IMG/VR virus record: IMGVR_UViG_3300042294_002813
Coordinates: 1 to 64,000 of that record
Reading direction: 5' to 3' (one strand)
Source: a virus
DNA length: 64,000 nt
Shown: piece after piece, positions 16,204 through 31,717 of the stretch
How the letters are laid out: the number at the start of each line of letters is the position of its first letter
Position numbering within the stretch: the stretch's first letter is position 1
The notes under the pieces: generated by a model
Databases searched by the model: none
The model's input: the letters and a program-made list of their open reading frames with translations, nothing else
What the model was told of the DNA's origin: nothing
Translations under genes and position numbers: made by a program

Positions 16204-17538
16204 TCACAGAAGGTTTGAAACCTTGAAGATACGATAGTAGACGTTTGAACGATTTGATAGGCGTCCAAGACCTGCTGTTACACCTTCAGCAAATGGATTT
16301 GCGACCATTCCGTAACGTGTCTTGAATCCGATACGTGGCTGGAATGTGTCTTGTCCGATTGCACGAACCATCTGTAGAGGAACATATGGGCAGTAGAACA
16401 GACCAGCGTCATAAGGTGATGTACCCTTATAACCAACTGTTACTAGTTCAGATGTGTTTGTTCCTGCTGTTGTTGAACCGTAGTAAGGATCGATGTAGAC
16501 CTTGATACGGTTGTGTAGAAGACCGGCAAATGTGTTGCCTGTGTCGTCTACCTGTAGATCAGCCTGAAGTGCTGGGGTATACTGTAGTACGCCTGCCATT
16601 GCCATTGCAGAAGCAACGTCAGATGAGCAGATTACTAGGTTACCCTTACCACGACGGGTTGCACGAGCGATTACGTTTGCTTCGCGTTCGATCTGGAAGA
16701 TCAGACCCTTGAACTTTTCAACTGACCAACGACCATTTGAGTCGGTGTCTAGGTCGAATGTTCCTGCTGTTGTTGTACCAGCTGAGCAACCAAGTACAGC
16801 TGTAGAATACACTGTACGGATTACTTCACGGTTGATTTCTGCAAGAATTTCGGTTGACAGAATGTTTGCCAACTCAGTTTCTGCATCAAGACCATGAATT
16901 GCCTTCAAGTCCTGAGCAAGTTCTAGAGTGTATTCTGCCTTCAATGCACGCTCACGAGCAGTTACTGTAACTTTTTCGATTGAGAATGCCATTTCAGCAA
17001 ATAGGTTTGTACCAGAGTCGCCAAGAGCTTCACCCTGAGCTGTTGTCATACCGTTACCAGTGTTGGAAAGAGTATAGTCTTCAATTCCTGGTGTAGAAGT
17101 CTGATGATTCTGTGATGCACCGTTTGCACCAAGCTTGTTTGCAGCTGAGAACTTTGTGTTAGCTTCGTTGAAGAGAGCTTCTGTTCCAGTCTGTGAGTCA
17201 AACTTTGAACGCATTGCGAAGATCAAGCCTGTTGGACCTGTCATTGGCTGAACGCCGCAGATGTCGTATGCGATCAAGTTTGGAAGGGCACGACGAACCA
17301 GCGAGATCAAGATCGGATCGTAGTTGCTGATTGAAGAGCCAGTTGCGTTTGTTGGAGCTGATTCAGATAGGAATGAACGATCACCGCCCATGAATGCTGC
17401 TTGCTGAGAAGAAGCAATCTGCTGGTTTTCAAGAACCATAGCTGTAACAGCTCTCTTGTAAGGATCCGCGATCTTTGGAAGTTCTGGATGATCCAGAACA
17501 GGACCCCACTTGTTGACTAGTTGTTCAGTAAGTTGCAT
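16204..17538 (-). CDS. 23: major capsid protein (T4 gp23)
   Basis: 444 residues, HK97-fold capsid protein of the T4 family. The N-terminus has an amphipathic delta-like region (LVNKWGPVLDHPELPKI), and LSE at 57-59 is a gp21-type cleavage site ((I/L)xE), close to T4's cut after Glu65. Downstream are family segments such as DPILISLVRRALPNLIAYDICGVQPM and TGLIFAMRS. Cleavage would leave about 385 residues. AAAGGAG precedes the start; codon usage is relatively regular as expected for the most expressed gene. No separate vertex protein gp24 is seen in the window. Confidence 0.95.
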   Translation of the reverse strand: MQLTEQLVNKWGPVLDHPELPKIADPYKRAVTAMVLENQQIASSQQAAFMGGDRSFLSESAPTNATGSSISNYDPILISLVRRALPNLIAYDICGVQPMTGPTGLIFAMRSKFDSQTGTEALFNEANTKFSAANKLGANGASQNHQTSTPGIEDYTLSNTGNGMTTAQGEALGDSGTNLFAEMAFSIEKVTVTARERALKAEYTLELAQDLKAIHGLDAETELANILSTEILAEINREVIRTVYSTAVLGCSAGTTTAGTFDLDTDSNGRWSVEKFKGLIFQIEREANVIARATRRGKGNLVICSSDVASAMAMAGVLQYTPALQADLQVDDTGNTFAGLLHNRIKVYIDPYYGSTTAGTNTSELVTVGYKGTSPYDAGLFYCPYVPLQMVRAIGQDTFQPRIGFKTRYGMVANPFAEGVTAGLGRLSNRSNVYYRIFKVSNLL

Positions 17539-17562: not shown

Positions 17563-18726
17563 TTATTTTAAAACTGTGCGACTAATTGACTTGACATATG
17601 CGTCCATGATTGGATCTGCACCTGTCTTGTTTTCTTTTTGTTTTTGTTCTGCAAGACTCTGGGCTTGTTCCACAACATCTGTTTCTTCATCAAGTCTTAC
17701 GTTATTTGACTTTGATGATACTGCTGCAGGGAAATAGTTTTCGCGTAGTGTCTTGAGACCGTCTACGAAGTCTTCAATGCTTGTAAACTCAATGCCTTCC
17801 GACAATGACTTTAGCTTCTCAATTTGAGTTGCAGTTAGACCTTCGCAAATATCGTAAATTGCTTCCATTTTTTTGTATTCATTTAGATTTTTATTGATTT
17901 CAATTGTGGCAGCAATTTGTTCGTTTAGCTTGTTTTCCAGTTCAACGACATGAGCTGTCATTTCCTCAACAACGCTCACCTTTTCTTCTGGAATATCAAT
18001 GTAGTGTTCTACGAACAGATTACGAAGACCTGCAATGAAGTCTTCGGTTAGTTCGGAACGAAGACCAGATTCAATTGCCAACTCGTTTTCCTTGACCCAT
18101 TCTTCAACGACGTAATTTAGATAGTCGTCTACTTTTTCGGTCATTTCTTCCTTGAGTTGTTCAGAAACCTGCTCTAGGATTTCTGCATACTGTTCTTGAA
18201 TTTGTTCTTCAATTTCTTTTGCTTTTGCATTTACAGCTGCTTCAAAGATTACTGCAGCCTTGTTCATGAAGTCTTCAGAAAGATTTTCACCATGGAAAAG
18301 AGCGTCAAGATCTTCCTTCATGGAATATTCTTCATAATCTTCATCGTCTTCTTTCTTGCTCTTCTTGGTGTGCTTTTCTTCTTCTTCGTCTTCCTCTTCC
18401 TTCATCATTTTCTTGTCTTCTTCTTCCTCTTCTTCTTCCATTTGAGGAGAAGCGCCTTTCATAGACTCCTTAGAAGCAGGTGCTGGCTGTGCTCCTGGTG
18501 GCTTTGCTCCGCCAACTGCAGCAATAGCCCTTGTGATGCCAGCCTCATCAGCAGAAGCAATAGCAGGCTGAACTAGTGCTGGATGACCTTCTTGACCAGG
18601 TGTGCCAACTGAAGGATTTGGACCTGTTGAACCAAAAGGTTCAGATACTCTTGACATTGGTGCCAAAGAAGCCATGTTGCCTGAAAGAATGGCTGCAGCT
18701 GCTTCAGCTAGATTTTTCTTTGCCAT
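17563..18726 (-). CDS. 22: prohead scaffold/core protein (T4 gp22)
   Basis: 387 residues, low complexity and helical. An acidic Glu/Lys-rich stretch lies at about 95-145, followed by long heptad-rich helices (DFMNKAAVIFEAAVNAKAKEI and onward), as expected for the T4 core scaffold. NLSED offers a gp21-type cleavage site. The position between genes 21 and 23 is the T4 order. The N-terminal 90 residues are Pro/Ala/Gly-rich, unlike T4 gp22. A perfect late promoter lies at 18754-18761. Confidence 0.88.
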   Translation of the reverse strand: MAKKNLAEAAAAILSGNMASLAPMSRVSEPFGSTGPNPSVGTPGQEGHPALVQPAIASADEAGITRAIAAVGGAKPPGAQPAPASKESMKGASPQMEEEEEEEDKKMMKEEEDEEEEKHTKKSKKEDDEDYEEYSMKEDLDALFHGENLSEDFMNKAAVIFEAAVNAKAKEIEEQIQEQYAEILEQVSEQLKEEMTEKVDDYLNYVVEEWVKENELAIESGLRSELTEDFIAGLRNLFVEHYIDIPEEKVSVVEEMTAHVVELENKLNEQIAATIEINKNLNEYKKMEAIYDICEGLTATQIEKLKSLSEGIEFTSIEDFVDGLKTLRENYFPAAVSSKSNNVRLDEETDVVEQAQSLAEQKQKENKTGADPIMDAYVKSISRTVLK

Positions 18727-18765: not shown

Positions 18766-19413
18766 TTAAAGTTTTGAAAGAAAGTTTTTGAATTGGCGTA
18801 GTGCGACATCTTCAAAATCTCGTCTACTTGCCTCATTCAAAGCTTTTTTTGCATGATCATAGTCAACTTCTTTCCATTGACCATTATCAATTACCCATTC
18901 CTTGCCTTCCATGATGCCTCTTACAAATGCATCTGGAGCTGATGGATCTGCAACAATGTCTGCTGCTGTAGCCAGATAAAAATCATCTTGTACCATATTC
19001 ACGCCGTTTCTGGCCTTTAGTGAACCTAATCCTCTAGAAGATACACCCAACTTGGCGCCTTCATCAATCAAATTCTTCACAATTTTTCCATAAGGAGTGT
19101 CTAGTATCTTAGCTTTACCCACATAATTCGTGCCTTCTTGTCTCAAATCCTTGATCATGTGTGATACGCGATCCAAATTGATCGTTGGAGTATCTGGATG
19201 ACCAAGTTCACCAAATGCACGATTTTGCATGATGTAATTAGAAGTATATCTTTGTACTTCTCTTTGTAGAATATCCATTGGATATACTCTACCATTTCTA
19301 TTTTGACGTTCAGCTTGTAGGAATACGCCCTCAATAAAATGTTCTTTTTGACCTGTTGTATTTTCTTCGGTCAGATAGCGTACTTCTTCTACAACTTCTT
19401 TTATAAGCTTCAT
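18766..19413 (-). CDS. 21: prohead core protease (T4 gp21)
   Basis: 215 residues, family U9/S78-like serine protease. RNGRVYP (39-45), FGELGHP with catalytic His72, and GVSSRGLG with the catalytic Ser at 125/126 are the diagnostic segments. T4 gp21 cuts core and capsid precursors after (I/L)xE. It overlaps the basic core-like gene upstream by 4 bp. Confidence 0.93.
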   Translation of the reverse strand: MKLIKEVVEEVRYLTEENTTGQKEHFIEGVFLQAERQNRNGRVYPMDILQREVQRYTSNYIMQNRAFGELGHPDTPTINLDRVSHMIKDLRQEGTNYVGKAKILDTPYGKIVKNLIDEGAKLGVSSRGLGSLKARNGVNMVQDDFYLATAADIVADPSAPDAFVRGIMEGKEWVIDNGQWKEVDYDHAKKALNEASRRDFEDVALRQFKNFLSKL

Positions 19414-19850
19414 CTTATACCTAAAGCCTTTCTTTTCATCATTGAACGTTTGCGCTTCTGTAGTGCGCGAAATAGTTTAGCACGACGCTTGACTTTTGCA
19501 CGACGAGCACCCATCTTTCTTGCTCTTTTTTCGGCTTGTGTCATACGAATAAGCTTTCCGCCGCGTATTGTCATGCCAGGAACAGCAGATCTTTTTACAC
19601 GACGTTGAACTTTTCCAGCACGAATTCGTGCCTTGATAATCTTGAAGCGACCATTGTTAATGACATTACCTTCGTTCATATTCTCAATTTGTTCTGCAAG
19701 TTCTGCAATATCATACTTTGCGGCAACAATCTTTTTTGCTTCTACCAATTTTTGCTTCAAAATTTCTACAAAAGATTCGGAAAGATTTTCGGAAGCTTCA
19801 TTTAGATTATCTGAAATTATTGAATCGACTAAATTTCTTGTTGATGACAT
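19410..19850 (-). CDS. basic prohead-core-like protein (gp68 position)
   Basis: 146 residues. The N-terminal half is acidic and helical with two gp21-type sites (LNE, LSE near residues 16-25); the C-terminal half is extremely Lys/Arg-rich. It sits directly upstream of gene 21 where T4 has 67/68. I infer a core or internal head protein whose basic tail contacts packaged DNA. No motif confirms orthology with T4 gp68. Confidence 0.6.
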   Translation of the reverse strand: MSSTRNLVDSIISDNLNEASENLSESFVEILKQKLVEAKKIVAAKYDIAELAEQIENMNEGNVINNGRFKIIKARIRAGKVQRRVKRSAVPGMTIRGGKLIRMTQAEKRARKMGARRAKVKRRAKLFRALQKRKRSMMKRKALGIR

Positions 19851-20327: not shown

Positions 20328-20819
20328 TTATAATCCTGTATGTGCGCCATGAGCAAAGGCGGCAACTTTTGCAAAACTATTTTTGTCTTTGTTTACCATT
20401 CTTTCAATTTTATATTTATTGGTCGTATTTACATTATTATAAAGATTAACGATTGCTTGTGCAGTCATAGCATCTACTTTCATTGACAAATTATCTTCAA
20501 AAGAGACATCTAAAGGTTCACCATTTTCTACTATTTGCATTAATACACCAATGTTACCTCTTGGTACCCATTCTTCATTGAATTGATTGAATTGGACGAT
20601 GTCTTTTTTACCAAAATTTGGTCCATGATATGGAATGCTTACATATTGATCAATCTTATCTGCATAGTATAGAGCAACTCTTTTCCCATCTGGAAAAACG
20701 CGAATAGCTTTGCGTTTTAAGATAATGATATTTGGAGGATCAATATAATGATCCTCTTTGATCAATGTCTTGTCTTCTTTAGTTATTGATTCGGAAAAAA
20801 AGCTTTTGATTGTCTTCAT
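20328..20819 (-). CDS. hypothetical protein with capsid-targeting-like N-terminus
   Basis: 163 residues. The first ten residues, MKTIKSFFSE, resemble the T4 capsid-targeting sequence of internal proteins (MKTYQEFIAE in IPIII), which is cut off by gp21. The rest is a compact mixed domain (IIILKRKAIRVFPDGKRVALYYADKIDQY) with a late Met/Ala-rich helix. I infer an internal head protein delivered or retained in the capsid; the body has no family I recognise. Confidence 0.5.
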   Translation of the reverse strand: MKTIKSFFSESITKEDKTLIKEDHYIDPPNIIILKRKAIRVFPDGKRVALYYADKIDQYVSIPYHGPNFGKKDIVQFNQFNEEWVPRGNIGVLMQIVENGEPLDVSFEDNLSMKVDAMTAQAIVNLYNNVNTTNKYKIERMVNKDKNSFAKVAAFAHGAHTGL

Positions 20820-20827
20820 TTTTATAT

Positions 20828-20986
20828 TTATTTTGCCTGAAAAAACTTTTTAGCTACATCAGATTTCATATTTTCTAGTGTAGATACTGCTTTTTTTGAA
20901 ATAATCCCAGATATATCTTCTTTTAAAGAAGCATATTTCTGATTATAGATGTCTTCAACAATTTCTTTTTTTACTTGATTGCTCAT
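20828..20986 (-). CDS. 52-residue prohead-core module protein
   Basis: 52 residues, a stand-alone copy of the N-terminal module of the next two genes: KKEIVEDIYNQKYASLKEDI, IISKKAVSTLENMK, VAKKFFQAK. The module resembles T4 gp67 in its helix pattern. It starts at 20986 and ends in a TAA just before the next start. The match to its neighbours, not length, supports it as real. It may be either a functional core peptide or the remnant of a shortened gene. Confidence 0.7.
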   Translation of the reverse strand: MSNQVKKEIVEDIYNQKYASLKEDISGIISKKAVSTLENMKSDVAKKFFQAK

Positions 20987-20999
20987 TTGATTATCTCTC

Positions 21000-22103
21000 T
21001 TAGCTTGTAGGTGGTCTTGTAATTCTTCCCTTAGATTCTATAGGGGGTTGTGGTCCAGCACCACCTGAAAATGGATTTCCTAATGGCGCACTACCCACTC
21101 TTGATCTCCATTGACCTGTTGCTGCGTCACGATTAACAGTAGGTTGTGCGGGATTATAAGCAGGGTTGCTTGGACTTACATATCGACCAGTTGCTGGGTC
21201 TTTATACCATGAACGTTCTCTACGTTGAGTTCCTGTTTCACTTCTTGATGATTGTGAAGATGGTGCTTCTTGACTTCTTGGTGCAGGTAAAGCACGAGGT
21301 GGTGCAGGTAAAGCGAGAGGGGCTTTAGGTTTTGGTAGTGCAGCAAGTTCAGGTGGCGTTGATGTTTTGGATTTTGACATCAAACGCTTTAATAAAGAGG
21401 CACCTGCTGCCGAAGCCGCAGCTGTCAAGGCATCTGCTGCAGATGCTCCACTGGGTTGATTTTCACGCTCTTTTTGTTTAGCTCTATCAGCTTGTCTCCA
21501 CTGATTTACTCCAGAACCACCTTGTGGCTGAGAGGTGTCAGCTGCTCCAGGCACTGGTCTTGATGCCGATGCCGGCGCAGGTGCAGGTGCAGCTGGCGCA
21601 GGTGCAGGTGCAGGTGCTTGTCTAGGTGCTGGTCTAGAAGGAGCCGCAGGTCTTGGTGCAGGTGCTGGTGCAGGGGCTACTGGTGGTGTATATCCAGGCT
21701 CACTTGGGCCAGCAGAAGTAGAAGGTGCAGAAGGCATTATTAAAGCAGGAGCTTCTATTTGACTTGGTTGAGTTGGTTTTTTTTGTGAGGCAACATCTCG
21801 TGAAGGTGCTTTACCACTAAATTGATCTTTCGCATCTTTTAACCAATCACTAACAGAAGAATACTCTTGTCCTGTATGAGTTGATACAGTAGGTGCTGAT
21901 CTTCCTAGTCTTGCATAATCTAATGTTCGATCCCAAGACTTATCTTCAGAATCACCTTCGTTCAATGAGAAAAACTTTTTACCAGCATAAACCTTTTTAT
22001 GCTCTAAAATTGAAATTACTTTTTCAGAAATAACTTTAGATATATCTTCTTTAAGAGAAGCATAATTTTGATTATAGATGTTTTCTATTATTTCTTTTTT
22101 CAT
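21000..22103 (-). CDS. prohead-core-module protein with long Pro/Ala-rich tail
   Basis: 367 residues. The N-terminal 48 residues (KKEIIENIYNQNYASLKEDI, ISEKVISILEHKK, AGKKFFSLNE) are the shared module and end in LNE, a gp21-type cleavage site. The remainder is low-complexity: Pro/Ala-rich (about 90-190), Ser/Ala-rich and disordered, ending with a YKDPATGRYVSP-like segment. I infer a precursor whose helical module joins it to the prohead core and whose tail stays in the head after cleavage. Confidence 0.65.
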   Translation of the reverse strand: MKKEIIENIYNQNYASLKEDISKVISEKVISILEHKKVYAGKKFFSLNEGDSEDKSWDRTLDYARLGRSAPTVSTHTGQEYSSVSDWLKDAKDQFSGKAPSRDVASQKKPTQPSQIEAPALIMPSAPSTSAGPSEPGYTPPVAPAPAPAPRPAAPSRPAPRQAPAPAPAPAAPAPAPASASRPVPGAADTSQPQGGSGVNQWRQADRAKQKERENQPSGASAADALTAAASAAGASLLKRLMSKSKTSTPPELAALPKPKAPLALPAPPRALPAPRSQEAPSSQSSRSETGTQRRERSWYKDPATGRYVSPSNPAYNPAQPTVNRDAATGQWRSRVGSAPLGNPFSGGAGPQPPIESKGRITRPPTS

Positions 22104-22114
22104 TTCTAATAACC

Positions 22115-22750
22115 TTAAACATTTCTTCTTGATTGTAAGAATGAATCGACTGCACCCCTTTCAGCAGCAACACCAACATATGATCTGGTAATTGGTTCTC
22201 TGTCTGCTCTATCTGAAGAGCCATGCGATCCAGATGATCTTGAAACTGGCTGTGATGCATCTGCCGCATCTGGATGTGCTGATGGCATAGGAATTTGAGG
22301 CTGACTTGCTGCTGGAGCAGGTGTTGGTGTTTGTGATGCTGCTGGATTTGGTGATTGTCCGCCTGATGGTTGTTGTGCTGCAGCTGGTGCAGGTCTCTGT
22401 TGTCTACCAGTGCTATATGTTCTTTCTACATTGTCAGCAGCTCTCCATGGAAATGTTGTATCACCACGATCTACTGCGTCCGCGAAAGCAGAACGAAAAC
22501 TTTGTGCTGGATCAGATGGTCTTCTATAAACAGGATAATTTCCACCTCTTGTTTGCACAGAACCCACTGGATCATTAGGTCCTTCATTGACCATCTTTTT
22601 ATTGAATAAAGCTTTTGCAGCTTCAATCTTCATATTTTCCAATAAAGATGTAGCTTTTTGTGAGATTATTGTGGAAAAATCTTCTTTCAAAGAAACAAAT
22701 CGATTGCCGTAAATGTCCTCGACAATTTTTTTTGTAATTTCTTTGCTCAT
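22115..22750 (-). CDS. prohead-core-module protein with Pro/Ser-rich tail
   Basis: 211 residues. The N-terminal module (KKIVEDIYGNRFVSLKEDF, IISQKATSLLENMK, EAAKALFNKK) is paralogous to the two preceding entries, followed by VNE/G, a possible gp21 site, then a Pro/Ser/Ala-rich disordered tail. It overlaps the portal gene by 4 bp and takes the position of T4 gene 67. The short length and module agree with gp67; the tail does not. Confidence 0.65.
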   Translation of the reverse strand: MSKEITKKIVEDIYGNRFVSLKEDFSTIISQKATSLLENMKIEAAKALFNKKMVNEGPNDPVGSVQTRGGNYPVYRRPSDPAQSFRSAFADAVDRGDTTFPWRAADNVERTYSTGRQQRPAPAAAQQPSGGQSPNPAASQTPTPAPAASQPQIPMPSAHPDAADASQPVSRSSGSHGSSDRADREPITRSYVGVAAERGAVDSFLQSRRNV

Positions 22751-24468
22751 AAAACTTCTCTTCGATTTTTTATTACTCTTAGTATATTATTTAGATTGGA
22801 TTTATCCTCAACTTTTAGCTGAGTTTTGACAGCATTATCCAATGCCGACTCTCCAGGATTGGTTGTATTTTGAAATGCAGTATTGACATCAACTTGTGGT
22901 GTAGTCCCATCTGGTTGAGGTGCCAACGGACTCGTTGGCTGCATTTGTTGATCCATTGCTTGTTGTTGTTCCATGGCCGCTTGTTGTTCAACAGCAATTT
23001 GTTGATCAATTTCTTGTATATCATCATCTGTTTGATTCAGAATGTTCTTACGAACCCATAAAGTAGAGAAATACTTACCAATATAAGGATCTGCAAATTG
23101 AAGTACCGTTATACGATTTTGAATCAATTCTGCTTTCTTTAGCTCTTCAAAATTATTGTCCGTTATAAAATCGTAATAGATATTTTCTTTGAAATAATCC
23201 CACTCTTCGACTGTGCAAATTCCCTTCAATGATAGTTGCACACGCAAAGCTTCATCAAACAAAGTTGAAAACTTGTTGCGAAGTCTAAACACGAACTTTG
23301 AGAACTTCAATTCGTCTCTTGTAATTTCAGACGCTCTACCAATAGAGAAACCTTGTTGCATTTCCAAACGAGAAATTGGAATGCCAAGAGACTTGTATAG
23401 CTTGCGTTCAAAGTACTTGACATCTTCCATTTCGCCAAGATTTTGACCACCTGGAAGAGTTTGAATTTCTGTACCTTTACCACCTTCACGGCGAGGTAGC
23501 CAAAAGTCTTCAAGCATTGATAGATGCTTGCGATCATCTCTGATTTCGCCTGTACTTGAGTCATACACAAGCTTGTTACGATACTTGACCATGATGTCGC
23601 GAAGATATTGTTCAGCCTTGACCTTAGGCAAGTTGCCTACGTCGATGTAGAACACGCGACGTTCTGGTGCGCGAGATAAACGATAAATGACAGTTGCGTC
23701 TTCGACCATACGTAACTGGTTTAGTGGCTTGATGGCCTTGTGCAAATATGATAGAACCATTGCACGACGAGAATCCATCAAACCAGAATTTACGTTGACG
23801 ATTGCATCTGGTGCAATTCTCATACCAAGATTTGAATGTGCGCCAATAATACCACGTTCATTATAGAGATAGTATTCGCGAGCCGTCTTGATGATATCGC
23901 CGCCTGTTGCAGGATCTTTCATTTTTTGAATTTCACGAACTTTACGAATACGTCTTGGATCAATGTATCTTAGTTCCTTGATACCATCTCTTGGTCTAGT
24001 TTCATCAATGACGACATGGTAGAACATTCTTCCGTCAATGTACCAACGACGAAATAGTTCTGAACCCATATTACCAAAGTTCAACATTCTAAGAATATTT
24101 TCAAATTCTTCGCGAATTCTCTTTTTTATAGTATCGGATACTTTTAGATCATCAATATTGATTGTTAGAGGTTCTTCGTGACCCTGCATGACGATTGCTT
24201 CATTGACGATGTCATCAATTGCAGTTTCAAGTTCTGGCTGCATTGCCATTTCACGATAGCGTGTGATGAGTTCGATTTCGTTACGAACAACACCTTCCAA
24301 ATCGACATAGGTGCCAAAATACGCCCCTGTCTGAAGCGTAACGGCACCGTCGTCATTTTGAGGAAGAGCAAAAGACTTTTCTGTTATGTTAGAAATGTCT
24401 TTTGGCTCTTCCTGTTTCTTGGTCTTTTCGTTTGTTATTTGAAACCCAAATAACTTCCAATTAGCCAT
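22747..24468 (-). CDS. 20: portal protein (T4 gp20)
   Basis: 573 residues. Family segments include ETAIDDIVNEAIV, RRWYIDGRMFYHVVID, YIDPRRIRKVREI, and YFERKLYKSLGIPISR near residue 360. The dodecameric portal is the packaging channel and the initiator of head assembly. The C-terminus carries a Gln-rich stretch (QQAAMEQQQAMDQQ) typical of T4-like portals from aquatic phages. T4 gp20 is 524 residues. Confidence 0.95.
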   Translation of the reverse strand: MANWKLFGFQITNEKTKKQEEPKDISNITEKSFALPQNDDGAVTLQTGAYFGTYVDLEGVVRNEIELITRYREMAMQPELETAIDDIVNEAIVMQGHEEPLTINIDDLKVSDTIKKRIREEFENILRMLNFGNMGSELFRRWYIDGRMFYHVVIDETRPRDGIKELRYIDPRRIRKVREIQKMKDPATGGDIIKTAREYYLYNERGIIGAHSNLGMRIAPDAIVNVNSGLMDSRRAMVLSYLHKAIKPLNQLRMVEDATVIYRLSRAPERRVFYIDVGNLPKVKAEQYLRDIMVKYRNKLVYDSSTGEIRDDRKHLSMLEDFWLPRREGGKGTEIQTLPGGQNLGEMEDVKYFERKLYKSLGIPISRLEMQQGFSIGRASEITRDELKFSKFVFRLRNKFSTLFDEALRVQLSLKGICTVEEWDYFKENIYYDFITDNNFEELKKAELIQNRITVLQFADPYIGKYFSTLWVRKNILNQTDDDIQEIDQQIAVEQQAAMEQQQAMDQQMQPTSPLAPQPDGTTPQVDVNTAFQNTTNPGESALDNAVKTQLKVEDKSNLNNILRVIKNRREVL

Positions 24469-30937: not shown

Positions 30938-31717
30938 TTATACTTTTTTCTTTATTTTACCTTTAACCCATTGAGTTCCTGGACAAATAGAACTTCTTTT
31001 ATTTATTATGCCATTATTCCACCAAAAAGAATTCTTGAACATATCAATATTTTTGGGAATACGTCCCTTTAAAGAGGAACTTATTTTTTTACTTATTTGT
31101 TCTTGTAATTCTTTAGAATGTTTCTTACCAAAAAATGGATTATTTTCACCACTCAATCTATCACTCAGTTTTTGCTTTGTTTCTTCTGAAAGCTTTCTAC
31201 CCTTTAAACTCATACTATTAGCTTGACCAATTTTTCTTTTTGTTTCTTCAGTTCTTTTCTTACCCCTATTAGAATTAGCTCTCTTCGTCTTCTCTTCCTC
31301 ACTTTGTACTCTATCTTTATTCTTCTCCCAAATAGCTTCCATTTTTTCGCGAACATCATCGCGAGACATAGCAGCTTTTGTATTTTTTGAAATCTTTTCG
31401 TTTATAGTCAATCGTTTTTCATCATCTAGATTTGTCCAGTGATTAAATTTAGTATTAATTAAATTGTAATATTTGACTCCAAGTTCTTCATCTTTTATAA
31501 GTTGAAGCCACTTATATTCAGTTTCTAGAAGATTATTTTTATCTATATTTCTTTGAATTATACGACGTTTAAAATCTTGTGGTCTTCTTCTATACGCATC
31601 TCTCATTCTATTTGATGAACATATATAACCATCGTTCGGCATACCAAAATGACAACCAAGATAATACATTTTTCTTTTTACATCATACCACAAATATATA
31701 AATCCATTTTTTTCCAT
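30938..31717 (-). CDS. GIY-YIG/NUMOD homing endonuclease (Seg-like)
   Basis: 259 residues, mostly Lys/Arg/Asn/Ser. The N-terminus FIYLWYDVKRKMYYLGCHFG fits a GIY-YIG nuclease core (degenerate GIY, clear YYLG), and two NUMOD3 DNA-binding repeats follow (RTEETKRKIGQANS and GRKLSEETKQKLSDRLSGEN with NPFFGKKHS). It lies free-standing between genes 13 and 14, 3 bp before gene 14, and carries its own exact late promoter. Composition (A/T-richer, Lys-rich) differs from the flanking neck genes, as expected of a mobile gene. Confidence 0.85.
   Translation of the reverse strand: MEKNGFIYLWYDVKRKMYYLGCHFGMPNDGYICSSNRMRDAYRRRPQDFKRRIIQRNIDKNNLLETEYKWLQLIKDEELGVKYYNLINTKFNHWTNLDDEKRLTINEKISKNTKAAMSRDDVREKMEAIWEKNKDRVQSEEEKTKRANSNRGKKRTEETKRKIGQANSMSLKGRKLSEETKQKLSDRLSGENNPFFGKKHSKELQEQISKKISSSLKGRIPKNIDMFKNSFWWNNGIINKRSSICPGTQWVKGKIKKKV

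Follow-up and report, generated by a model that had tools for sequence, protein, structure and literature searches.

The sequence studied here, called the window, is the whole stretch of 64,000 nt that was analysed; the parent virus record has 73,160 bases and its source is a T4-like virus of bacteria. The window carries a T4-type head operon on the minus strand, with genes in the order gp20, A, B, C, D, E, F, gp21, gp22 and gp23. The features used below are the following.

22747-24468, minus strand: portal protein gp20 (PF07230)
22115-22750, minus strand: gene A, gp67 paralogue of 211 aa; module at 22604-22750, then a neutral, predicted disordered tail of 157 aa
22580-22591, minus strand: predicted gp21 site of A, VNE/G at residues 54-57 (position derived from the ORF start)
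21000-22103, minus strand: gene B, gp67 paralogue of 367 aa; module at 21969-22103, then a Pro/Ala/Ser tail of 317 aa
21954-21965, minus strand: predicted gp21 site of B, LNE/G at residues 47-50 (position derived from the ORF start)
20828-20986, minus strand: gene C, bare gp67 of 52 aa; module at 20840-20986, without site or tail
20328-20819, minus strand: gene D, whose first 10 residues form a T4-type capsid targeting sequence (CTS), MKTIKSFFSE/S
19410-19850, minus strand: gene F, gp68-type core protein; module at 19713-19850, then MNE/G and a very basic tail
19668-19679, minus strand: MNE/G site of F (motif scan)
18766-19413, minus strand: prohead protease gp21 (PF03420, Peptidase_S77)
17563-18726, minus strand: scaffold protein gp22 (PF25623)
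16204-17538, minus strand: major capsid protein gp23 (PF07068)

A possible gp21 site, LSE/S, can also be read from the sequence of gp23 at residues 57-60. Between the head and tail genes lies an ORF at 30938-31717 (minus strand), whose start, GFIYLWYDVKRKMYYLGCHFG, resembles by eye a GIY-YIG homing endonuclease.

The shared module and its relation to gp67

The three ORFs A, B and C were found exactly where the initial annotation had put them, and the helical module it had described is common to all three (49-67% protein identity over 45-49 residues). It was right about tandem copies but counted only three, as a fourth module heads F. Across the 73,160-base record the module profile had four matches and no others (A, B, C and F, E 5.2e-17 or better); since these four were rows of the profile, this demonstrates only the absence of further matches.

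We built an HMM from A, B and C alone and searched 7,749 ORFs, taken from 93 loci and the window region. The first round recovered 44 ORFs at E < 1e-3 from the fetched loci and the window, with the best reversed decoy at E 2.1, and already matched the annotated gp67 of Edwardsiella phage PEi26 (E 3.5e-5). Six rounds brought in T4 gp67 at E 5e-8 (best reversed decoy 0.27), and the final model scored it at 2.4e-8. When A was compared by tblastn with 50,697 phage records, seven weak matches emerged, four of them gp67 or prohead core genes with the module aligned, each at E 1. The family phrog_1064, which contains T4 gp67 (E 1.7e-30), matched relatives at 1.2e-5 and about 5e-4, and the single-protein scan of A against it reached only 0.016. 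Foldseek of the A model against viral models found no match at E 0.001, as expected since the model is mostly disordered, and the PDB sequence search returned only three telomerase matches (E 0.61). The annotation of PEi26 gives the order portal-gp67-gp68-gp21-gp22-gp23, and the gp67 place of the window is likewise directly after the portal and before gp21. Judged by sequence homology, the module of about 45 residues is the N-terminal module of T4 gp67, a prohead core protein. The early designation as a prohead-core module is thus upheld by sequence and by the position after the portal.

A gp68-type core protein is expected to be encoded before gp21 and to have a basic C-terminal tail. F has both, with a tail of 86 aa and a net charge of +32, and was assigned by position and tail charge because it does not match T4 gp68 families (no hit to phrog_1049). 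The tails are positive in 72/73 gp68-type proteins. Profiles made of gp67 only and of gp68 only match each other at E 9e-12.

Within the window, a CTS-like pattern was present only in D and, weakly, in gp21, and A, B and C have no CTS. Short neighbours in relatives are also CTS-like (L010 2345-2593, L012 3718-4134, L014 7955-8218; e.g. MKTFKQFILE/A), so both kinds of putative head-targeting N-termini occur in one operon. The C-terminal half of D gave weak hits to phrog_4187 and to phrog_696, 'major head protein'.

Copy number and gene forms among relatives

The survey comprised 252 loci, obtained from three portal searches, a single search with B, another with C, and the loci of 13 named phages; together with the window it holds 253 sequences, with 127 distinct intervals complete from gp20 to gp21. 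The window was collapsed in this count with L001 and L027, which are 99.97% and 100% identical to it. At E < 1e-3, ten intervals had no module (nine belong to the 13 named phages, the tenth to a contig), 28 had one, 85 had two, two had three and two had four. In 106 of 117 intervals, the first module gene starts no more than 60 nt from the portal stop. Typically, then, a single gp67 follows the portal, and a single gp68-type gene lies closer to the protease. Three or four modules were seen only in L001, L027, L003 and L004, which form the window's own species cluster (4/127 intervals), and given the 85 intervals with two modules, the window represents an amplification of gp67. No module was found outside the gp20-gp21 intervals of the surveyed loci or outside the head interval of the window's own 73,160-base record, and 14 longer records had two strong module matches each. 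A candidate module at the C-terminus of the D family (E 0.001-0.02 in longer records) fell to E 1.7 or worse with a fuller model and was rejected, and a 256-aa frame with a weak module match in two longer records (E 0.001-0.02) was set aside.

The codon tree placed all copies of the window's cluster in one clade with support 95 (85 in the protein tree). B grouped with the second gene of the L003 cassette, L003 g2 (99 codon, 96 protein), and C was placed next to this pair (89 codon, 53 protein). With the amplification confined to this cluster, A, B and C are best explained as lineage-specific duplicates of gp67. The simple view of C as the original bare copy was not supported, as C groups with B.

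Searching for the module in other phages with different tails, as had been suggested, recovered it bare and with acidic, basic and long tails. Bare forms make up 69/234 distinct module proteins complete at the 3′ end. A bare protein of 51-55 aa is the sole gp67 in near relatives such as L006, L008, L010, L013, L019, L021 and L025; the exceptions are L015 (149 aa) and L016 (127 aa). C had been described as either the bare module or a decayed copy, and the former reading is right while decay is not favoured, because bare gp67 is common among near relatives and C is thus a normal gp67 form. An acidic tail was found in 68/81 distinct gp67-type proteins with tails longer than 10 aa. The window departs from this, as the net charge of the tail is +1 in A and +14 in B, and C is tailless. 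We treat the acidic tail as a variable trait of gp67, because bare forms are common.

We also identified the module as the C-terminus of a protein of 263-932 aa in 31 ORFs (26 distinct proteins), encoded after the portal (L031, L049-L067, L099-L138). Nine of these proteins were scanned; eight had DUF5661 (one also DUF6321) and one had Kyano_Gp96. In all 26 distinct proteins, the module start coincides with an ATG, preceded by GAGG, AGGA or GGAG whose first base lies 8-13 nt upstream, although the 26 genes are related and do not represent 26 independent events. The ATG and the ribosome site are kept even where the amino acids at the module start differ, and among other internal ATGs of the same genes only 28/497 have a ribosome site. 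We infer that bare gp67 may be made from the same large gene by internal initiation. A comparable second start is reported for T4 gene 21 (PMC9026906).

Tails and candidate gp21 sites

The tails are rich in Pro, Ala and Ser, as initially stated (P+A+S 39% in A and 47% in B), and they look coding, with GC by codon position of 0.60/0.62/0.15 in A and 0.61/0.68/0.15 in B. The DNA flanking the cassette in L003/L004 is about 98% identical to the window on both sides. Protein identity to L003 is 1.00 for the portal, F and gp21, 0.99 for E, 0.98 for gp22 and 0.93 for D; it is 0.23 for A and 0.30 for B, and C has no counterpart of its own. The tails are therefore replaced and the bare copy is absent in this sister population. 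L005 represents a third cassette type, cut off by the contig end. Near-perfect tandem repeats with periods of 24 to 96 nt fill parts of the tails (L003 7719-10427, L004 7719-10361). A repeated stretch of the second gene sets L003 and L004 apart by 22 residues, and this 66-nt difference within one repeat points to growth and loss by repeat slippage. The tails could in principle be near-neutral, functionless by-products of gene duplication and such slippage, with which the fast turnover and the tandem repeats would agree. We find this improbable, as the tail frames stay open over 159-487 codons, the codon-position signal is strong in A and B, and open tail frames are kept in all three cassette types seen.

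The A tail (22450-22520, minus strand) and L005 (6212-6823) have in common the segment NYPVY..SD.A..FRSAF.DA...GD..F.W, and the rest of the two tails differs. The segment is predicted to be helical in A (81-95) and is perhaps a small folded unit inside a disordered tail. The fast turnover of the A and B tails recalls, by analogy, the T-even internal proteins, a group reported to vary widely while keeping its targeting sequence (PMC3012670).

For T4 gp21, cleavage after L/I-X-E has been reported (PMC9026906); we used the looser motif [LIVMF]xE[GAS]. VNE/G in A and LNE/G in B, both already named in the initial annotation, are the sole such motifs in these proteins. A, B and the two L003 genes (g1 and g2) have one site each, directly after the module, with a shuffling chance of 0.023-0.028 each, and the remaining tails have zero sites where 0.12-0.68 would be expected; the four copies are not independent, since B is related to L003 g2 and A to L003 g1. 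With related sequences included in the counts, a site lies within -3 to +15 of the module end in 52/73 gp68-type proteins and in 7/9 gp67-type proteins with tails longer than 100 aa, but in only 13/44 distinct gp67-type proteins with tails longer than 20 aa. Most gp67s with a short acidic tail have no such site. The background in other ORFs is 7.0% of 29,305 windows of 18 residues. Counts in mixed proteins (39/52, and 28/67 representatives) overstate the case for gp67, because the gp68-type proteins drive them.

The remaining 31/44 gp67-type proteins without the motif would fit a situation in which A and B escape cleavage altogether and, as intact core subunits, either remain in the head or leave it, their motifs being due to chance. 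We give this little credence, as each of the four complete long-tailed copies in the cluster has the site immediately behind its module, and a site recurs in most gp68-type proteins. AlphaFold run on A with 43 sequences predicted helices at 3-14 and 18-54 with pLDDT of about 90. The second helix ends at residue 54, at the site, and is followed by a mostly low-confidence tail with the one further helix mentioned above. The module had been read as a core-binding propeptide which the protease removes from disordered cargo, and this is supported in part, namely by a gp21-type site after the module, with predicted helix before it and mostly disorder behind it in the A model.

Possible fate of the tails and comparison with known systems

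The best explanation for the tails of A and B, and the one towards which we lean, is that they are cargo targeted to the core and cut once. It draws on the gp67 homology and position, the single site after the module, where the predicted helix of A ends, the lineage-specific amplification, the turnover of the tails and the fusion of modules to large proteins in relatives. The gp67-type tails without the motif, the shortness of the motif with its 7% background, the reported degradation of T4 gp67 and the tails of A and B, neutral where those of gp67 are mostly acidic, speak against it. By analogy with T4 gp67, the helical module would co-assemble into the scaffolding core, to which C would supply the bare subunit, and the long disordered tails would enter the prohead with A and B. 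When the head matures, gp21 would cut A and B once after the module (VNE/G and LNE/G), and the module would depart with the core debris. The intact tail would stay in the head and might later be injected. The tails would be exchanged quickly, as T-even internal proteins are.

The main alternative, possible but in our view rather unlikely, is that the tails are scaffold, disordered neutral material that would fill the core or set its size and then, like the rest of gp67, be expelled or degraded before DNA packaging. T4 gp67 is said to be essential for core and head shape, to judge from the title of Keller 1986, and the tails are of low complexity with tandem repeats. Degradation of T4 gp67 and gp68 by gp21 is also reported, with gp67 ending as small peptides and not as a carrier (PMC9958956), although gp67 is also among the proteins listed inside the T4 head (PMC7697877). 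However, the tails have no further site of the motif used, so that intact pieces of 157 and 317 aa would have to exit the head, and a bare 52-aa gp67 is what the nearest relatives use to build theirs.

Whatever the fate of its tails, the window feature is real and homologous to a known core protein, and it is unusual in copy number, tails and turnover. It links the little-studied T4 core protein gp67 to possible cargo loading. Moreover, a large clade of environmental phages is seen to have gp67 and gp68 as an acidic/basic pair built on a common module, and the C-terminal-module genes lead to the prediction of nested gp67 translation. The CTS has already been used for packaging foreign proteins in T4, and should the tails remain in the head, the module would be a second capsid-loading tag beside it. 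More tentatively, the gp67 module may be a general head-loading tag usable at either protein end and separate from the CTS, amplified with a cut site and swappable tails in the window or placed in C-terminal fusions with a nested bare gp67 elsewhere, the tails being injected in an arms race with host defence. In the titles and abstract openings covered, no paper reports that gp67 and gp68 share a module, that gp67 is amplified or that it is nested in a larger gene.

Among known systems, T4 gp67 (PIP, phrog_1064) is close, with a homologous N-terminal module, a place behind the portal and an LIE/G that immediately follows the module, as the sites in A and B do. It is, however, a single copy with a short acidic tail, whereas in the window gp67 is present three times, twice with a long neutral tail and once bare. 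F resembles T4 gp68 in position and basic tail, but T4 gp68 itself gave no match to the module, unlike the gp68-type proteins of the window's clade. The T4 internal proteins IPI-IPIII are similar in having a conserved N-terminal targeting part, a gp21-type site and a diverse remainder (PMC9026906, PMC3012670). Their targeting part is the 10-residue CTS, whereas the module of A, B and C, some 45 residues long, is a core protein in its own right. The giant phage SPN3US can be likened by description, as long propeptides removed by the prohead protease and paralogous head proteins are reported for it (PMC5694885).
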